A DNA stretch of 64,000 nucleotides, taken from contig NZ_OBEL01000007.1 of the NCBI RefSeq assembly GCF_900215605.1, forward strand, positions 124,001 through 188,000, written 5' to 3'. The notes beneath the pieces were generated by a model that saw only the letters and a list, made by a program, of their open reading frames with translations, searched no databases and was not told where the DNA came from. Below, piece by piece: positions 41,042 through 48,453 of this stretch. The position numbers and the translations under genes are program-made. This DNA is from Cohaesibacter gelatinilyticus. Lineage in GTDB: Bacteria; Pseudomonadota; Alphaproteobacteria; Rhizobiales; Cohaesibacteraceae. Positions within the stretch are counted from its first letter, which is position 1; each line of letters begins with the position of its first letter.

Positions 41042-41947
41042 TCAGGTGCTTGAAGACCCGCGTGGCCGGAAAAGCCGTCCCACACGATCACTGAAGGCAA
41101 CGATGAGAGTGGCCATGATAATGAGAGCACTGGAGAGATAGAAATTGGCATCCGGGATGATGGCAAAGAAGATCAGATCGGACAGAACCGCAAAGACTAG
41201 CGAGAGATATTCAAACGTCGCCAGTTTGGAGACTTCGCTATACTGATAGCTGAGCGTCATCATGATATGGGCGAAGCCACCGGCAAAGCCACAGCCAATC
41301 AGCCAGAATAATTGCTCGGCATTGGGCGTCACCCAGCCAAAGGGCAAGGTCGCCAAACCGGCAACGGCACAAGTCAGCGCAAAGTAAAATGCAATGGCCC
41401 CGGCATTCTCGGTTTTTGCAAGGCTGCGGATCTGGATCTTGGCGCCCGACGTCAGAACCGCCATCAAAACACCCAAGGATGCCCCAATGAAATAGTCCCG
41501 ATCAGCAGCAACGCCAGATATCTTTGGCAAGATCAGCACCAGCATACCAGCAAAACCAAAGAAGATGCCCAGCCAACGCGCGCCGGTTACTTCTTCCTTC
41601 AGGATCAACCGAGCCAGGATCACCGCCAAAATGGGCGCGATATAGCCGATTACCGTGGCATGAGCTATAGGCAGATATTTAAGCGAAGCAAATGAGGCGA
41701 ACATCGCCATGCAACCCATCAGACAGCGCGCAACATGACCCAAAGGCCGTTTGGTTTTCAGCCCCGAGGGGAAATCCTTGGTCCAATAGAGAAACAGAAC
41801 CAGCGGGATCAGCGCAAAAGCACTGCGATAGAAAACAATCTGGCCGGTGGGAATATCATCAGTAACAAATTTGATGAACAGCACCATGATGGTGAAGAAG
41901 AGCGTGGCACCAATTCGAAGAGCAATGCCGGTAAAATCAGAAGACAT
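41042..41947 (-). CDS. EamA/DMT-family permease
   Basis: A 301-residue, ten-helix membrane protein of the drug/metabolite transporter superfamily with two EamA repeats (about 10-140 and 155-290); FYRSAFALIPLV and YIAPILAVILARLILKEEVTGARWLG are typical. These proteins mostly export metabolites. It is encoded downstream of the nickel/peptide-type ABC operon, on the same strand but separated from it by 176 bp containing a composite repeat, so co-transcription is uncertain. EamA proteins act as metallophore exporters in some metal-uptake loci, which makes the neighbourhood suggestive only. Confidence 0.88.
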   Translation of the reverse strand: MSSDFTGIALRIGATLFFTIMVLFIKFVTDDIPTGQIVFYRSAFALIPLVLFLYWTKDFPSGLKTKRPLGHVARCLMGCMAMFASFASLKYLPIAHATVIGYIAPILAVILARLILKEEVTGARWLGIFFGFAGMLVLILPKISGVAADRDYFIGASLGVLMAVLTSGAKIQIRSLAKTENAGAIAFYFALTCAVAGLATLPFGWVTPNAEQLFWLIGCGFAGGFAHIMMTLSYQYSEVSKLATFEYLSLVFAVLSDLIFFAIIPDANFYLSSALIIMATLIVAFSDRVGRLFRPRGSSST

Positions 41948-41998
41948 AGGAACAGGTTTCAGTTTGAGAAAGGTTATTGCCTGATTAGAAGTCCAGAG

Positions 41999-42113
41999 CC
42001 GGCCCTCTCCTCCTCCCAAACCACCCGTCATGGTACCCTCGTGGGCGGTTTGGGAGGGGGAGAGGGCTGGTGATGCAGCCTAAAAGGCTAGGTTAGAGAC
42101 TTTTAAATCGGGC
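41999..42113 (+). repeat. Composite intergenic repeat, copy 3
   Basis: The palindrome 41999-42070 has long C-rich and G-rich arms around CATGGTACCCTCG, followed by GATGCAGCC and the tail AGAGACTTTTAAATCGGGC (42095-42113). The short hairpin module found in copies 1 and 2 is absent, so this is an internally deleted form. It separates the last ABC permease gene and the EamA gene. Confidence 0.85.
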
Positions 42114-42123
42114 ATGAAGACAC

Positions 42124-42984
42124 CTAGGATGTTTTTTCGACATGATCACGCAACTGATCACCAATGAGATTAAGAGACAGAACGGCAATGAGCACGGCAA
42201 GCCCCGGAAAGATCATCAAATGCGGAGCAGTTTGCATATAAGCTTTGCCGTCCAGCAGCATAGCACCCCATTCGGCTTCCGGCGGCTGAACGCCAAAGCC
42301 AAGGAAACTCAGACCGGATATGGACAAGATTGTGCGTGCCCACATGTTCGTCCAGAGAACCAAAAGTCCGAGCTTAAGATTGGGCAGATAATGCCGCCAC
42401 AAGATCAGACGGAAGGGCAGATGATTGAGATGCGCCTGGGTGATGAAATCCTTCTTGCTCAACTCCAGTGTCAGAGACCGGGTCAAACGCGCATAACGCA
42501 TCCAACTGACCATGACCAGGGCAATCACCATATTGCTGGTGCTTGGACCAAGGATCCCGGCAATGGCAATAGCGGCAATCAGCTCCGGGAAAGCAAAGAA
42601 CGAATCCGTGATACGCATCAAGAACTGGTCGAACCATCGCGGTGCGGAACCCGCTGACAGTCCGACCAGTACCCCCACCACAGCGCCAAGGCCGGAAATG
42701 AGAAAAGCAAGGCCAAGTGACCAACCAGCCCCATAAAGAATACGCGTCGCAACATCCCGCCCGAGGTTATCCGTGCCAAACCAATGCGTTGCAGAAGGCG
42801 GCTTCAAGCGCATCAGAAAGTTGGCTTCATTCGGCTGATAAGGCGTGAGCAAGAAGGCTGCAGCAAAAGCCAGCCCCACGACAACAATCGCAATACCAAG
42901 ACGCTTCAAGAAACGAGACAGATCACTCTGCGGAACAGAGACATCAGCACCAGTGGTCAGAGCATCAGAATTACTGGATATCAT
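42124..42984 (-). CDS. Nickel/peptide-type ABC permease (NikC/DppC family)
   Basis: A 286-residue permease with an N-terminal helix (about 28-48) and five further helices in a BPD_transp_1 domain. THWFGTDNLGRDVATRILYG is the characteristic DppC/NikC/OppC segment. It pairs with the permease encoded upstream (4-bp overlap). The family carries peptides, nickel, or metal-metallophore complexes; the control elements upstream of the operon favour a metal-related substrate. Confidence 0.92.
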   Translation of the reverse strand: MISSNSDALTTGADVSVPQSDLSRFLKRLGIAIVVVGLAFAAAFLLTPYQPNEANFLMRLKPPSATHWFGTDNLGRDVATRILYGAGWSLGLAFLISGLGAVVGVLVGLSAGSAPRWFDQFLMRITDSFFAFPELIAAIAIAGILGPSTSNMVIALVMVSWMRYARLTRSLTLELSKKDFITQAHLNHLPFRLILWRHYLPNLKLGLLVLWTNMWARTILSISGLSFLGFGVQPPEAEWGAMLLDGKAYMQTAPHLMIFPGLAVLIAVLSLNLIGDQLRDHVEKTS

Positions 42985-43955
42985 GACTCAGCTCCCCTGT
43001 TCACGCGTTTGATGGGCACGAGCCAGTCCTGAACAATTTCAACCAGAGTGTTGATGAGGACATAGCTGAAGGCAGAAAACAGCACGAGGAACATGATCAA
43101 CGGATAATCACGGCTCAGCACGGAATGCACGAAGAGCGCACCGATGCCATTGCGCGAGAAGATCACCTCCACAATAACAGCCCCTTCCAAAAGACCCGCC
43201 AGATCCACCCCGATCATTGTGACAGCCGGGATCATGGCGTGGCGCAAGATATGCTTCCAAAATAACTCGGACTCGGACACGCCCCGTAGGCGCAAGGCTT
43301 CCAAATGTGGCGCAGCTTTAGCCTCCAAAAGGAAAGAGCGAAACAATCGGGTTTGCGATGTGGTCACCCAAAGCCCAAGCGTTGTCGCAGGCAAGATCAG
43401 ATGCTCCAGCCCTTCGCTGCCATAAGCGGGCAGCCATTGCAGAGTGGCGGAGAAGAATAAAATGAGCAAAAGCCCTAGCCAGAAAGACGGCATGGCAGCG
43501 CCAATAGAGGCAAAGGCAACAGCAAAGCGATCAATCAGGCTGCCCGGCTTCCAGACACTGAGCGTCGCCAACACAAAAGCAAGGCAAAGCCCGATGATCA
43601 GGGCCGTCAATGCCAAAGACAAAGTCTCGAGAACATTGGGAACAAAGATCACCCAAACCTCTTCCTGCGAGACAAAAGATTTGCCAAAATCCCCTTGCAG
43701 CAAGGGCCCAAGCCAATGCAGGAACTGGCTGAGGAGCGGTTTGTCGAGGCCAAATTCCTCGCGGATCATGGCCGCAATTTCAGGCTGGATATCCCCCTCT
43801 CCACCATAGCGCGCTTGCCCGATGGCAAGGGCCTTATCACCCGGTGAGAAATAATAGAGCAGAAAGGTCAGGAAGCTGACACCAAACATCACCGCCAGCA
43901 AGCTTGCCAAGCGGTTGAGCAGGATCAGCGAAATATGTTTGAAACTCTGTGTCAT
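42981..43955 (-). CDS. Nickel/peptide-type ABC permease (NikB/DppB family)
   Basis: A 324-residue permease with the N-terminal VMFGVSFLTFLLYYFSPGD segment typical of DppB/NikB, six helices and the EAA-type loop near EALRLRGVSESELFWKHILRH. It overlaps the ATPase gene upstream and the second permease gene downstream by 4 bp each, so it is tightly coupled in translation. It forms the membrane channel as a heterodimer with the DppC-type subunit. Confidence 0.92.
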   Translation of the reverse strand: MTQSFKHISLILLNRLASLLAVMFGVSFLTFLLYYFSPGDKALAIGQARYGGEGDIQPEIAAMIREEFGLDKPLLSQFLHWLGPLLQGDFGKSFVSQEEVWVIFVPNVLETLSLALTALIIGLCLAFVLATLSVWKPGSLIDRFAVAFASIGAAMPSFWLGLLLILFFSATLQWLPAYGSEGLEHLILPATTLGLWVTTSQTRLFRSFLLEAKAAPHLEALRLRGVSESELFWKHILRHAMIPAVTMIGVDLAGLLEGAVIVEVIFSRNGIGALFVHSVLSRDYPLIMFLVLFSAFSYVLINTLVEIVQDWLVPIKRVNRGAES

Positions 43956-44761
43956 TGGCCTGCCTCTAATCTTGGTATTTCTTCGGACAACTCAGCAGGC
44001 TGCTCTAACGCACCAAGAATGGCAGCTGCATCGATCAACTCTGCGCCATAAGCCGACGCGGGATTGGCGAAGAAGTCATCGGCTCTTTGACAGGCTTCCA
44101 TCTTGCCGTTACGCAAGAGAAGAATTTGATCGGCATAAGCACGGGCAAAACCCAGATCATGGGTCACGAACAAATAGCTGAGGCCATGGGCCTGACGGAT
44201 ATCGTCAATCACCCGGGCGATCTGCTTTTGCACTACTGCATCAAGAGCGCTTAATGGCTCATCGAAAATGATCATGTTGGGACGGGAAATCAGAGCACGC
44301 GCAATACAGACCCGTTGCGCCTGCCCCAAAGACAATTGCGGTGGCTTGCGCGTGATCAGCTCTTCCGATAATTCCACCTCCTGCAAGGCAGAGCGCAATC
44401 TTGTCTGCTGCTCGGACTTACTCAATCTGGCGCTATAAAGCCCTTCCAGAATGGCATCGCCCACCCTTTGATGCGGGTTCAGTGCTGCAGTCGGGTTTTG
44501 CATCACCCAGCTTACTCCCGGCAGGCCAAGATAGTTCTGCCCCGGCTGATAGATATGCTCCACGCCATCATCAGACAGACCATGATGAATGCTGCCCTCG
44601 GCCATCGGCATCATGCCTTGCAGGCTTTTCAGCAAGGTGGTTTTGCCGGAACCACTTTCACCAATGATGCAAAGGCACTCACCAGAGCCAAGGTTGAAAT
44701 TGATATCATCCAGCAACCGCGTCTCATGGGCGTCGACGCAGAGAGATTTTACTGTCAGCAT
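43952..44761 (-). CDS. ABC importer ATPase (DppF/NikE-like), second of pair
   Basis: A 269-residue ATPase with Walker A GESGSGKTT, Q loop VMQNPTAALNP, the altered signature LSLGQAQRV in place of LSGGQ, and Walker B IFDEPLSALD. It resembles NikE/DppF and serves as one of two different ATPases of the transporter. It overlaps the other ATPase gene by 7 bp. Confidence 0.93.
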   Translation of the reverse strand: MLTVKSLCVDAHETRLLDDINFNLGSGECLCIIGESGSGKTTLLKSLQGMMPMAEGSIHHGLSDDGVEHIYQPGQNYLGLPGVSWVMQNPTAALNPHQRVGDAILEGLYSARLSKSEQQTRLRSALQEVELSEELITRKPPQLSLGQAQRVCIARALISRPNMIIFDEPLSALDAVVQKQIARVIDDIRQAHGLSYLFVTHDLGFARAYADQILLLRNGKMEACQRADDFFANPASAYGAELIDAAAILGALEQPAELSEEIPRLEAGQ

Positions 44762-45555
44762 ACTTCTGCCCCCTCCAGAGATTGGCCCTCATGCGACCAA
44801 TAACGATTGGAAACCAGCAGCTTGCCATAGTCCGAGCTTGGCGCTTCCATTAGCTTTGCAGTCGAGCCGAATTCTTCAATCTTTCCAGCACTCAGGATCG
44901 CCAGGCGATTGGCAAAGCGAGCTGCCAAGGCCAGATCATGGGTCACGATCAGCGTGGCTATGTCATGCTCTTTGGCATGGGCCATGACACGGGTTATGGT
45001 CTGCGCTGCGATCAACGGATCCAGAGCCGAGGTTGGCTCATCCAGGATCAGCAATTTCGGTCGGGCCAGCAAGGCAAAGGCAATCAGCAAACGCTGTTGC
45101 ATGCCCTGGCTCCATTCATGGGGATAGCATTTACCAAAGTCTGGCAGGCCAAGGGAGCCGAGAAGTTCAGACTGTTCTTCCTTGCTCATATCGCCACGAT
45201 TGGCACAACGCACCGCCTGCTTCCATTGCACGGTCAGACGCTTGAGTGGATCAAGACCGGCTTGCGGATTTTGCGGCACGAAGGCAAAGCCCCGATCAGC
45301 CGAACGAACCGAGCGATCATTGACAAGTTGGATCATTTGATCAGCAAAGATCATCTGCCCGCTCGTTGGTTTGGCTGGCTTATAAAGCCCCATGATGCAA
45401 CGAAGAAGGCATGACTTCCCTGCCCCTGATCCCCCGACGATGGCAACACATTCGCCATGCTGCACATCCAGCGAGATGTCTGATAGGACAATCTGTCCGC
45501 CAATATTGGCGGACAGATTGCTTACGCTCAGAAGACTTGAGTTAGTCTTTGACAA
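44755..45555 (-). CDS. ABC importer ATPase (DppD/NikD-like), first of pair
   Basis: A 266-residue ATPase with Walker A GGSGAGKS, Q loop VPQNPQAGLDPLKR, signature WSQGMQQR and Walker B LILDEPTSALDP. It is of NikD/DppD type, although shorter than typical DppD (about 320), lacking the C-terminal iron-sulfur-like extension; that short form is common in nickel-type systems. Its start overlaps the end of the binding-protein gene by 14 bp. Confidence 0.93.
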   Translation of the reverse strand: MSKTNSSLLSVSNLSANIGGQIVLSDISLDVQHGECVAIVGGSGAGKSCLLRCIMGLYKPAKPTSGQMIFADQMIQLVNDRSVRSADRGFAFVPQNPQAGLDPLKRLTVQWKQAVRCANRGDMSKEEQSELLGSLGLPDFGKCYPHEWSQGMQQRLLIAFALLARPKLLILDEPTSALDPLIAAQTITRVMAHAKEHDIATLIVTHDLALAARFANRLAILSAGKIEEFGSTAKLMEAPSSDYGKLLVSNRYWSHEGQSLEGAEVC

Positions 45556-47116
45556 GATCCAGCTCCGGAGATGCGAGATAGGTCTCGGCTGGATGAATGC
45601 GATAACCTTTCACCTTGCCGTTGCCGACAGAAACCTGGGTTTTGTGGAACAGTGGAATGATCGGCAGATCATCATTGATGATGGCCTGAGCCTCATCATA
45701 ATAAGGCTTGGCTTTCACCGGATCGAACTCGGCCCGAGCCTTTGCCAGCAATTCATCCATCTTGGCGTTGGAATAGCCGGAATAGTTATAGCCAGCACCG
45801 GTCTGAACCAGAGTGCTTGGGAAATAATCTGGATGGCCCTGAGGCGCGGTACCCCAAGCCTGAAGGTTCATCTGGATCTCGCCAGCTTTCAGTGCATCAT
45901 TATTGGCACCGAATTCGCCGATGGCGATTTCAACGTTGAGGCCCAACTGTGACAGCATATGCTGGCTGATTTCCAGGGTTGGACGCAAGGCTGCGCGGCC
46001 TTCGTAGGTGCGCATCTTGATGGTGATATCCTTGCCATCCAGCTCACGAATGCCATTACCATCACTGTCCTTGATGCCAGCGTCATCCAGAAGCTTTTTC
46101 GCTTTCGCAACATCATAAGGCAGTTTGACATCGCCATTAACCCAAGACTTCATATTGGCCGGGAAAATGGAATTGGAGGCACTGCCACCGACGCCAGCAA
46201 GGGCAGCTTCGGCAATCACGTTACGATCCAAACCAAGAGAAATGGCCTGACGTAGAGCCTTGTTTGATAACACACCGTCGGCAACCCGTGGCATGAAGAA
46301 GAAGAGGCGCAGGGTCTCGCCGGAGAATCTCTGACCCTCATCCTTTTTCGTCAGCTCGGCAAATTCCGGCTCGGAATAGTTGGTCACCAGATCGATATCA
46401 CCCGCTTTCAAGGCTAGCGCAGCGACGGAAGCGTCGCTGATCTTGTCCAGCTTGATGCCATCCAGCTTCGGCTTGCCACCCCAATAGTCAGCAAAGGCAC
46501 GGGTCACATATTGCTTGTTGGCCTCGGCTGAGACAAAGACAAAAGGACCCGTACCAATGATTGGCATGTCCTTGGTGCCTTCTTTCAAAACCGCCGCAGA
46601 TGGCTCTGTCAGGGACCAAAGGAAAGCAGCATTTGGCTTCTCGGTCACGAAATGCACGGTCTTGTCATCGATAACCTTGATTTCCTTGATGCCAAGCAAC
46701 TTCCAAAGACGCGCGTTATGAGCGGAATGATCCTTTTCATTGAGCTTGTCGAAGGATGCCTTCACATCCTTGGCAGTCATGACGCTACCGTCATGGAATT
46801 TCACATTGTCACGCAGCACCACTTTCCATTCGGTAGGCGAAACATTTTCATAAGACTGCGCCAGACGTGGATATTGCTGCATGTCATAAGACAGGCCAAT
46901 CAGGGTTTCAGACACACCAGCCCGGTTGCTCAGCCAACCGTTCTGGCGCGCACGTGGATCTGGAACCGAACTGGTAGGGCCAAAGGGGTAGCCAATGCGC
47001 AGGATTTTCTCGCCCGCTTGGGCAGCATCCGTCAGCAAAGTGGAAGAGGCAGTGAGTGAGAGGAAACCACAAGTGGCAAGCGCAAGAAGCGAGCGGCCGG
47101 AAACGATGTGTTTCAA
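45542..47116 (-). CDS. Nickel/peptide-type ABC substrate-binding protein (SBP_bac_5 family)
   Basis: A 524-residue binding protein with a cleavable signal peptide (cut likely after DAAQA near 34) and no lipobox. Family marks are RAGVSETLIGLSYDMQ, WKVVLRDNVKFHDGSVMTAKDV and the late LPIIPLFHKTQVSVG. The fold carries peptides, nickel, haem or metal-metallophore complexes. It leads a five-gene operon. The start is TTG 47116 with GGAG eight bases upstream; I see no good ATG. A Zur-like palindrome lies about 50 bp before it and a cobalamin riboswitch about 360 bp before it on the same strand. Cobalt, zinc or a metallophore complex are the leading ideas, none shown. Confidence 0.92.
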   Translation of the reverse strand: MKHIVSGRSLLALATCGFLSLTASSTLLTDAAQAGEKILRIGYPFGPTSSVPDPRARQNGWLSNRAGVSETLIGLSYDMQQYPRLAQSYENVSPTEWKVVLRDNVKFHDGSVMTAKDVKASFDKLNEKDHSAHNARLWKLLGIKEIKVIDDKTVHFVTEKPNAAFLWSLTEPSAAVLKEGTKDMPIIGTGPFVFVSAEANKQYVTRAFADYWGGKPKLDGIKLDKISDASVAALALKAGDIDLVTNYSEPEFAELTKKDEGQRFSGETLRLFFFMPRVADGVLSNKALRQAISLGLDRNVIAEAALAGVGGSASNSIFPANMKSWVNGDVKLPYDVAKAKKLLDDAGIKDSDGNGIRELDGKDITIKMRTYEGRAALRPTLEISQHMLSQLGLNVEIAIGEFGANNDALKAGEIQMNLQAWGTAPQGHPDYFPSTLVQTGAGYNYSGYSNAKMDELLAKARAEFDPVKAKPYYDEAQAIINDDLPIIPLFHKTQVSVGNGKVKGYRIHPAETYLASPELDLVKD

Positions 47117-47161
47117 CGCATTACTCCGTAAATTGGTTGGAAGAAGACGAAAATTAGAAAC

Positions 47162-47180
47162 GTTACGTTATAACATAACA
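47162..47180 (-). promoter_or_regulatory. Zur-like operator
   Basis: CGTTATAACATAACA at 47166-47180 matches the Zur box core TGTTATAnTATAACA at 12 of 14 defined positions, and GTTACGTTATAACATAAC is an 18-bp near-palindrome with one broken base pair per half. It lies 46-64 bp before the TTG start of the binding-protein gene, where it would block a promoter under zinc-replete conditions. Confidence 0.5.
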
Positions 47181-47304
47181 AATATGAGGAGCCAGTACTT
47201 CTTTTCCTTTTCCCGGTTCAATGCCAGCAAACAAGGAAAGGCATACAGGATCTGATGCAGCCACGCACAGCCAAAGGCAAGACATGACGGAAGAACAACC
47301 TCTG

Positions 47305-47427
47305 TTAAATCAGAGATTTAAACCTCAGATCGACAGCCATGAAGCCGGGAAAAGATCTTTTGAGAAGGCAAACAAAACCACAAGCGACACGCTCGCATCC
47401 CTTTGTTTGCAAAAGGGGATAAACCAT
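47305..47427 (-). CDS. Possible 40-residue leader ORF below the cobalamin riboswitch
   Basis: An ATG at 47427 is preceded by AGAAGGAG at ideal distance and lies about 50 nt after the riboswitch core; a small stem CGGAC/GTCCG sits just before that ribosome site. The encoded peptide begins MVYPLLQTKGCERVACG and matches no family I know. It could be the direct translational target of the riboswitch or merely chance. Nothing about its composition proves coding. Confidence 0.25.
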   Translation of the reverse strand: MVYPLLQTKGCERVACGFVCLLKRSFPGFMAVDLRFKSLI

Positions 47428-47479
47428 CAAATTGCTCCTTCTACGGACAACCCCGTCCGATAGTATCTGGGCCCTCGAT

Positions 47480-47695
47480 GGCAGGTCTCCTGACTTGCGG
47501 ATTAATGCATCCTCACCTTCCCAAGCTAGAAGCTCAGTGGTCCTTGGAGGATACCTGAACGCACACTCAAAATGTGTAGACCAAACACATTTTGAGTGTG
47601 CGTTCTTGCCGCTTACAGTTGCGGGGGCAGTCACGGAATTGGCGCCTAATGGCTACACCGCACCGTGTTCCCTTTTCATGCTGATTGTCCGATAG
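47480..47695 (-). promoter_or_regulatory. Cobalamin riboswitch
   Basis: Reading the minus strand gives the full signature in order: AAAAGGGAACACGGTG, GACTGCCCCCGCAACTG followed by TAAGCGG, CCACTGAGC, TTGGGAAGGTGAGGATG and GTCAGGAGACCTGCC at 47494-47480. The peripheral arm between TAAGCGG and CCACTG is a perfect 21-bp hairpin with a 7-nt loop (47557-47605). It points toward the nickel/peptide-type ABC operon, 360 bp upstream of its first gene. Binding of adenosyl- or another cobalamin would be expected to lower expression. bioY, on the same strand, ends upstream at 47863. Confidence 0.95.
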
Positions 47696-47862
47696 ACGTT
47701 CAGCAACCATCAAGGCGATGATGGCTCCATCATCACGGGAAATCAATGGTCATTTTCGCTTATGGTCAGATTGCCACAAAACCGAAGGCTCCGCACGCCC
47801 GCTTGTTCCACCGCAAGCATGCAGAGCTTGTTCATTTCAGATCTAGATTTGGATATTTGCAA

Positions 47863-48453
47863 TCAGTCAGATTTTCTCTCTGACTTATGGGGTATCGCAC
47901 GCAAAGTTGCTGCGCCCAGCGCAGACTTCAGCACACCGCCCACAAGGAAAGGTGTGACACCAACAGCCATGGCCTTTTCAACACCAATGGAAAGCGAAAG
48001 CCAAAACGCACCCAAAGTCAGACACAGCACCGTACCGATAAGCATGGCAATGAAGGCCAAAATCACATTCCGACCATTCCAGCCACGCTGAACAAGCCAG
48101 CCAACAAGCATTCCGCAGATAGGAAATGCAAAAAGATATCCTGCAGTTGGTCCGGCGAAATGGGCAAGACTCCCCGCACCTCCAGCCAAGACAGGCAACC
48201 CGGCTGCGCCTTCCATGAGCCAGGCAATAATGGTAATGCCTCCCATACGCCAACCATAGAGTGCACCGACAAGCATCACCCCATAGGTTTGCATGGTCAT
48301 TGGGACAGGATACATGGGAACTTCGATCCGGGACATCAGTGCCAAAAACATGGTTCCAAAGACAACTGCTGCTATCTTCCAAAGAAGAGAACGATTTTCG
48401 AGATTGAGAGGGCTGAGGACAGATCCAGCCGCGCTGAGATTTGCGTCAATCAT
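47863..48453 (-). CDS. bioY: BioY, substrate-binding S component of the biotin ECF transporter
   Basis: A 196-residue membrane protein of the BioY family with five to six helices and the conserved VPMYPVPMTMQTYGVMLVGA and MEGAAGLPVLAGG-like segments. It binds and imports biotin, alone at high levels or with an energising AT module (BioMN), which is not encoded in this window. BioR boxes at 48471-48480 and 48615-48624 lie in its promoter region, so it is repressed when biotin is ample. Biotin demand in this window includes the dedicated carboxylase at 22566-24173. Confidence 0.95.
   Translation of the reverse strand: MIDANLSAAGSVLSPLNLENRSLLWKIAAVVFGTMFLALMSRIEVPMYPVPMTMQTYGVMLVGALYGWRMGGITIIAWLMEGAAGLPVLAGGAGSLAHFAGPTAGYLFAFPICGMLVGWLVQRGWNGRNVILAFIAMLIGTVLCLTLGAFWLSLSIGVEKAMAVGVTPFLVGGVLKSALGAATLRAIPHKSERKSD

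Follow-up and report, generated by a model that had tools for sequence, protein, structure and literature searches.

Zur and the cobalamin (vitamin B12) riboswitch are well-known sensors, each of a different deficit. Here we describe an operon of Cohaesibacter gelatinilyticus in which both elements stand before the genes of one ATP-binding cassette (ABC) importer; it lies in a 64,000-nucleotide stretch of contig NZ_OBEL01000007.1, called the window hereafter. A recurrent pairing of the two elements, in fixed order, before one importer would amount to a natural two-input metal switch and would allow a direct test of joint cobalt and zinc uptake, including the replacement of zinc by cobalt. It would also predict a function for a Nik/Opp-type ABC-EamA operon that is scattered through the Alphaproteobacteria. 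Such a recurrence, seen in several other bacterial lineages, suggests a single transporter that supplies the cell with zinc as well as cobalt.

The operon and its two regulatory elements

The cobalamin riboswitch, directed toward the ABC operon, covers the RF00174 model over its full length (1-189), passes the gathering cut-off, and is the sole Rfam match at gathering level within the window (Table 1). The first-pass annotation of this DNA, made from its letters, had placed such an element here, and the profile search bears it out. At the homologous locus of a Cohaesibacter metagenome-assembled genome, whose binding protein is a 93% relative of the one studied here (the sister genome), the riboswitch scores 125.7 bits. 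An assignment of the riboswitch to bioY was ruled out, as this gene lies upstream in the same orientation and is over by 47863, ahead of the aptamer. A perfect 21-bp inverted repeat with a 7-nt loop, at 47557-47605 inside the riboswitch, is missing from the sister genome; this insert should, from its sequence, form a stem of its own and need not break the aptamer. The whole genome (5.2 Mb in 15 contigs) holds four RF00174 riboswitches including that of the operon, and the other three precede a DUF4198-headed set, which looks like a cobalt importer, a set with a CobW-like and a CobN-sized open reading frame (ORF), and a Peripla_BP_2 ABC set (names partly by eye).

The Zur box, GTTACGTTATAACATAAC, lies between the riboswitch and the first ABC gene and differs at one of its 18 positions from the perfect palindrome GTTATGTTATAACATAAC. 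The near-palindrome had been noted before as a Zur-like site matching at 12 of 14 positions, and while the site itself holds, that figure understates the match. It is the only match in the window at three or fewer mismatches, where shuffled sequences give an expectation of 0.01, and the whole genome contains four Zur-type sites with none for a reversed-pattern control. With a znuA-derived matrix the operon box scores 29.3 bits, and the next-best non-overlapping site of the window 6.7 bits. A chance palindrome is thus ruled out by the shuffles, the reversed pattern and the matrix score. The matrix was built from the best site, with at most four mismatches, that 26 out of 30 znuA loci retrieved from relatives contained when their whole stretches were scanned (24 distinct boxes); its training sites are independent of the operon, and it is partly circular in form because its consensus was taken from the window palindrome.

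The other three Zur-type boxes of the genome adjoin znuA, a pair of cobW and DUF1826 genes, and a Pyr_redox_3 flavoprotein gene, so that this genome carries a palindrome identical in kind before znuA and further zinc genes. The cobW GTPase beside DUF1826 reaches 577 bits with the ZigA model, just below the cut-off of 600, and three Fur-family genes are candidates for Zur itself. Within the operon box lies the GTTA-5N-TAAC core that a Caulobacter study cites for many proteobacteria, and which the box shares with the alphaproteobacterial Zur regulon of znuA and COG0523 (PMC4176598; here and below, cited papers are represented by the parts of them available to us). COG0523 clusters under Zur regulation are depicted with DUF1826 among their genes (PMC2770081). 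The strong box before the Pyr_redox_3 flavin oxidoreductase (L051 6378-6395, G000:C2:175377) marks a gene that would be unusual as a zinc gene; an SBF-family transporter gene lies near it on the same strand.

Behind these elements, the nickel/peptide-type ABC operon described in the first-pass annotation was recovered as an SBP_bac_5 binding protein, two ABC ATPases and two BPD_transp_1 permeases. Its extent had been drawn too short: the ABC genes stand, but an EamA-family gene had been left out, and the set spans about 41042-47726, which we infer to be one transcript. Of 27 related locus rows, 22 have EamA behind these genes (20 of 25 genomes, as two genomes contribute two rows each), and two of the five rows lacking it stop at a contig edge. 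At the start of the operon, both Cohaesibacter genomes have an ATG-CGT-TGA (47110-47125) that shares the letters TTGA with the TTG start of the binding protein, an overlap that may hold translation of this protein low or coupled; the TTG start and its Shine-Dalgarno spacing are kept in Roseibium aggregatum too.

Table 1. Features of the locus, in window coordinates, from the riboswitch to the last gene of the set.
Feature	Position	Strand	Basis and remarks
Cobalamin riboswitch aptamer, RF00174	47726-47463	minus	cmscan 108.4 bits (gathering cut-off 31.5), E 3.2e-26
Putative expression-platform hairpin, CGGAC-GGGGTT-GTCCG	47444-47459	minus	sequence and folds; ends just ahead of the leader Shine-Dalgarno sequence
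Leader ORF, 40 codons	47305-47427	minus	sequence; ATG with AAGGAG Shine-Dalgarno sequence; between riboswitch and Zur box
Zur operator, 18-bp near-perfect palindrome	47162-47179	.	pattern and matrix scans; 45 bp before TTG start
Substrate-binding protein, SBP_bac_5	45542-47116	minus	TTG start, GGAG Shine-Dalgarno sequence; signal-peptide-like N-terminus (by eye)
ABC ATPase 1 (NikD-like)	44755-45555	minus	domain and NCBIfam profiles
ABC ATPase 2 (NikE-like)	43952-44761	minus	domain and NCBIfam profiles
Permease 1 (NikB/Opp2B-like), BPD_transp_1	42981-43955	minus	domain and NCBIfam profiles
Permease 2 (NikC/Opp2C-like), BPD_transp_1	42124-42984	minus	domain and NCBIfam profiles
EamA-family transporter	41042-41947	minus	start taken at 41947; longer ORF begins at 42031

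Recurrence of the pair before related operons

Homologs of the binding protein were sampled from two wider sets, one of 397 genomes of the order and one of 385 of the class, and the counts are lower bounds because only the best few candidates per genome were scored. At E <= 1e-80 they occur in at least 5 of the 397 and at least 6 of the 385 genomes (the present one included in both) and in at least 15 of the 87 genomes in the family of G295, a sporadic occurrence overall; two plasmid records carry homologs at 1e-60. The comparison covered 27 loci: the present one; G017, counted once with McBI.23 (L009); G418, counted once with Roseibium aggregatum (L010); G719; 12 more of the genus of G418, taken as Roseibium; and 11 others (G166, G447, G449, G714, G734, two plasmids, G611, G853, G788 and G272).

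A Zur box beating 300 shuffles is found at 22 of these 27 loci (21 of 26 in the matrix scan, in which distances run to the aligned stretch and not always to the start codon, and G853 in a separate scan), and a cobalamin riboswitch at seven. Both elements stand at six loci, the box alone at 16, the riboswitch alone at one and neither at four. The riboswitch precedes the box in all six dual loci, namely the present one, G017/McBI.23, R. aggregatum, G611, G853 and G788, and the distance from its 3' motif to the box is 290-397 nt (300, 293, 303, 296, 290 and 397 nt, in that order). The pair is thus met before homologous operons in other genera, and the earlier suggestion that the importer is tied to zinc and to cobalamin status is supported by the sequence tests, the site being above chance and the pair recurring. 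At 15 loci lacking a gathering-level riboswitch, a permissive Rfam search (E up to 1) showed no remnant; absence of the riboswitch in G295 is not firm because the contig stops about 580 nt upstream.

In a tree of the binding proteins, R. aggregatum, G719, which carries no riboswitch, and the two Cohaesibacter form one group (96/95), and G611, G853, G788 and G272 form a deep separate one (100/100) with a riboswitch at four of four loci; the long branches flagged by the tree program include R. aggregatum, G719 and G272. Since two separated clades hold it, the riboswitch is either ancient with many losses, or has been acquired on two or more occasions. The Zur pattern was also searched through six genomes: the operon box is among five sites in G418 (reversed control 0) and among three in G611 (control 1) and is the only site in G853 (control 1); G719 has six sites (control 11) and G272 none (control 2), and the operon box of G788 lies outside that genome's three sites.

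Several of these loci have neighbourhoods of interest. On two Rhodobacterales plasmids (L061 5808-14960, and L062) the ABC genes follow a cobW-like GTPase gene, DUF1826 and a small gene, which one annotation calls DUF6525; no Zur box of the present consensus was found at these two plasmid loci. The plasmid ABC genes are followed by a peptidyl-prolyl isomerase gene and a HupE/UreJ gene, and an Rrf2-type regulator lies beside the row. The riboswitch of G272 stands ahead of two more ORFs, DUF1289-like and DUF1636-like by eye, and then the binding protein. R. aggregatum has a second Zur-like box (L010 5148-5165, 18.6 bits), placed 88 nt ahead of a divergent phoX (PF05787), whose alkaline phosphatase is a candidate, from the sequence, for a phosphatase under Zur. 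A Zur box of G788 (L142 1501-2077) directly precedes an apparent second copy of the phosphoribosyl-AMP cyclohydrolase gene (by eye). An extra phosphoribosyl-AMP cyclohydrolase is a typical zinc-saving paralog.

A control set of 28 less related binding-protein loci contained two with a box beating 100 shuffles, one of them with a riboswitch; the set is not clean, because both boxed loci belong to a distant family that is itself largely boxed. From this family (27% identity), G032 has a riboswitch of 134.5 bits about 195 nt before the Zur box, in the same order. When 396 genomes were searched with the G032 protein, 16 of them yielded 17 loci; a box beating 200 shuffles stands at 12 of the 17, at 351 and 424 nt out in two cases, and a riboswitch at two, one about 1 kb upstream. 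The distant relative in G382 (L164) has a Zur box directly ahead of its gene and, about 1 kb upstream, a cobalamin riboswitch. In G023, the ABC genes of a distant relative stand behind znuA-like, cobW and DUF1826 genes, with three Zur boxes. ABC systems of this sort thus have Zur boxes beyond the family of the present binding protein too, and we read this as a wider phenomenon in which the B12 element is a recurrent addition.

Proposed release of the importer by zinc or B12 deficit

The arrangement points to a Nik/Cnt-like ABC importer of a metal or metal complex that, together with EamA, would be released by either a zinc or a B12 deficit, a reading to which we give a probability of roughly two in three. 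As the box lies 3' of the aptamer, a transcript that begins at a promoter there must lack the aptamer, which leads to an OR rather than an AND reading. Zinc is linked to the system by the Zur box, by the cobW-DUF1826 row of the two plasmids and by the znuA-like, cobW and DUF1826 genes of G023; cobalt is linked by the riboswitch and by the NikABCDE systems behind B12 riboswitches, which are named as exceptions to nickel specificity among NikA systems (PMC2667541). A link to B12 is also seen in the gene order behind the riboswitch of G272. A possible reason to join both signals is offered by zinc-starved Cupriavidus, where cobalt can stand in for some zinc (PMC11340326).

In the mechanism that we propose, a distal promoter, P1, would give a long transcript carrying the riboswitch. 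B12-bound riboswitch would stop translation of the leader ORF (B12-OFF), and the untranslated leader would expose the RNA to Rho termination ahead of the ABC genes, so that P1 output would be high only at low B12. A proximal promoter, P2, overlapping the palindrome would be repressed by Zn-Zur, and its RNA would begin past the aptamer and hence be blind to B12. Together the two promoters would form an OR gate, opened by a shortage of zinc or of B12; blocking of P1 read-through by Zn-Zur would shift the logic towards AND. The importer would carry cobalt for B12 synthesis and zinc, or cobalt replacing zinc, as free ions or as ligand complexes. The fuller picture is of one shared zinc-and-cobalt line, with an OR gate built from a disposable leader ORF and then a Zur promoter, cobalt both feeding B12 and replacing zinc, and a pairing gained repeatedly or else ancestral and often lost. 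This picture is tentative, and we would put its chances clearly below even.

The leader ORF is likely the direct target of the riboswitch. The loop of the hairpin ahead of it could pair with a C run of the aptamer, presumably in the kissing-loop role known from B12 riboswitches. A Shine-Dalgarno sequence and ATG occupy the matching position in McBI.23 (38 codons) and R. aggregatum (46 codons), and the leader peptides of the three genomes look unrelated. Comparison with the sister genome at the nucleotide level tells constrained parts from filler: the stretch from the hairpin to the ATG is 78% identical, vs 45% for the leader body, 45% for the spacer and 43% for the flank upstream of the riboswitch. 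The riboswitch is 72% identical, with the insert of the present copy counted as mismatch, the 25 nt before the box 84%, the Zur box 94%, and the interval from box to TTG 71%. That the Shine-Dalgarno sequence and ATG are kept and the peptide is not fits a riboswitch that switches translation of the leader without a role for the peptide. It also fits a leader whose only role would be to keep transcription going, with a Rho step that we infer, or to keep the RNA protected. Rho is only one possibility, because a terminator-like site sits inside the leader. In Mycobacterium tuberculosis, a B12 riboswitch and translation of a short upstream ORF jointly set downstream expression of ppe2 and metE, which resembles our proposal; unlike at the present Zur box, the available part of that study describes no transcription-factor operator behind the ORF (PMC11260477).

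A number of observations weigh against the two-input reading. Among the 27 loci, five lack a recognisable Zur box, the riboswitch is missing from 12 Roseibium-genus genomes and from G719, and the box of G788 is weak (11.3 bits, shuffle maximum 6.4, five mismatches to the pattern); single pattern hits in G853, G719 and G272 prove little, because the control there equals or exceeds the true pattern. At the leader, the AGGAG-type start is absent in G611, G853 and G788 and none is evident in G032, so that a leader-ORF step does not hold for every locus; a clear leader with Shine-Dalgarno sequence and ATG is present at one of the three remaining riboswitches in this genome. The hairpin folds are no more stable than shuffled sequences, no sigma-70-type promoter was found in 47000-47950 (0.7 expected by chance), and the one intrinsic-terminator-like site inside the leader compares with 1.0 expected. 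For the transporter, none of the NCBIfam equivalog cut-offs for NikABCDE is reached (NF045468, Opp5A_nikA, 228.3 vs 600 bits), nor are those for the Cnt subunits (CntA 104.4 vs 800, CntC 178.5 vs 440, with CntD and CntF also below), and dipeptide binders follow close behind NikA in the fold search. Finally, a zincophore survey finds Opp-type importers mostly with major facilitator superfamily exporters and EamA with FecCD importers, and the present operon joins an Opp-type importer to EamA (PMC7438024).

Two other accounts of the control region were weighed. In the first, a single promoter upstream of the riboswitch would serve the operon, and Zn-Zur bound at the palindrome would stop the elongating polymerase as a roadblock, making an AND gate that needs both B12 and zinc to be low. 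This would suit a box that sits inside a presumed long transcript, a spacing of about 300 nt in five of the six dual loci and a region near the box in which no sigma-70-type promoter is recognised; but at 16 of the 27 loci the box occurs without a detected riboswitch, 38-226 nt ahead of the gene start or of the aligned stretch, like an operator on its own promoter, and the well-kept 25-nt block upstream of the box (84% vs 45% for the spacer) could be promoter sequence. We regard the roadblock as unlikely. In the second, the ABC operon would be purely Zur-controlled and the riboswitch a leftover, or an element serving the leader peptide only or a former cobalt-transport gene. The Shine-Dalgarno sequence and ATG next to the riboswitch do belong to the leader ORF and not to the binding protein, and most close relatives are Zur-only (13 of 16 loci in the nearest clade). 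Yet the aptamer has been kept while the leader body has fallen to background identity, and the pair recurs in distant clades at similar spacing, with one clade carrying a riboswitch at every one of its four loci; a leftover is, in our view, decidedly improbable, more so than the roadblock. Control by both zinc and B12, from two promoters, remains the account that we prefer.

Transporter identity and comparison with known systems

The ATPases and permeases score best with Nik-type models, and the parts overall with Nik and Cnt models, all below cut-offs; the nearest to its cut-off is Opp2C, at 286.9 vs 300 bits. An AlphaFold model of the binding protein (predicted local distance difference test score 83.8) has Staphylococcus aureus NikA as its best fold match. 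Nickel specificity was dropped as a firm call, given the unmet NCBIfam cut-offs and a fold search that does not split metal from peptide binders. SBP_bac_5 proteins are often peptide binders. The operon could accordingly import peptides or another organic nutrient, such as a nitrogen or histidine source under metal stress, and the fold scores of dipeptide-binding proteins do nearly equal that of NikA. Both regulators are, however, of the metal or cofactor type, zinc genes adjoin the system in some relatives, and the ATPases and permeases lean to Nik-type models, though below cut-off. We judge peptide import improbable, to a degree lying between the roadblock and the leftover riboswitch, and prefer a metal or metal complex as cargo.

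A shared metallophore may be this cargo, an indirect suggestion by analogy that is based on the Nik/Cnt-like ABC genes and EamA. A home-made metallophore of the staphylopine type is not supported: no staphylopine-type dehydrogenase was found in 25 genomes, a search without positive control since 14 control genomes also gave no match.

Clostridium tetani and Desulfitobacterium hafniense belong to a phylum other than that of C. gelatinilyticus, and Cnt systems are under Zur control. In the two former species NikABCDE lies behind a predicted B12 riboswitch, so that a Nik-type ABC importer and a riboswitch are joined as in the present operon, and unlike here no Zur control is mentioned in the part of that source available (PMC2667541). 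The Cnt systems for staphylopine and pseudopaline share with our operon the Opp-type ABC importer (Staphylococcus type) or the EamA exporter (Pseudomonas type), and have a broad metal range including cobalt; EamA is a predicted exporter in many opine zincophore clusters, usually beside FecCD-type importers. Unlike our operon, the Cnt systems have no B12 riboswitch reported in the accessible part of that survey (PMC7438024). The riboswitches of the COG0523 survey, in its available part, concern cobW genes or B12-independent isozymes and not an importer such as this one (PMC2770081). The words "peptide" and "oligopeptide" are absent from the main text of PMC4176598, and "peptide transport" and "ABC transport" from PMC2770081.

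No report of an operon preceded by both a Zur site and a B12 riboswitch was found in the open-access literature, covered mostly at title and abstract level and with subscription journals largely outside. Classic surveys of B12 and zinc regulons are partly in subscription journals. Thus each control alone is known on related importers, and the pairing of both, for which no report was found, appears new.

Two minor observations concern the EamA gene. In G166 it is followed by ABC genes of FecCD-like appearance (by eye). In the window, a 28-bp imperfect inverted repeat (89%) occupies 41999-42070, between permease 2 and EamA; it may represent a repeat element, or else a hairpin that adjusts EamA expression through RNA stability.

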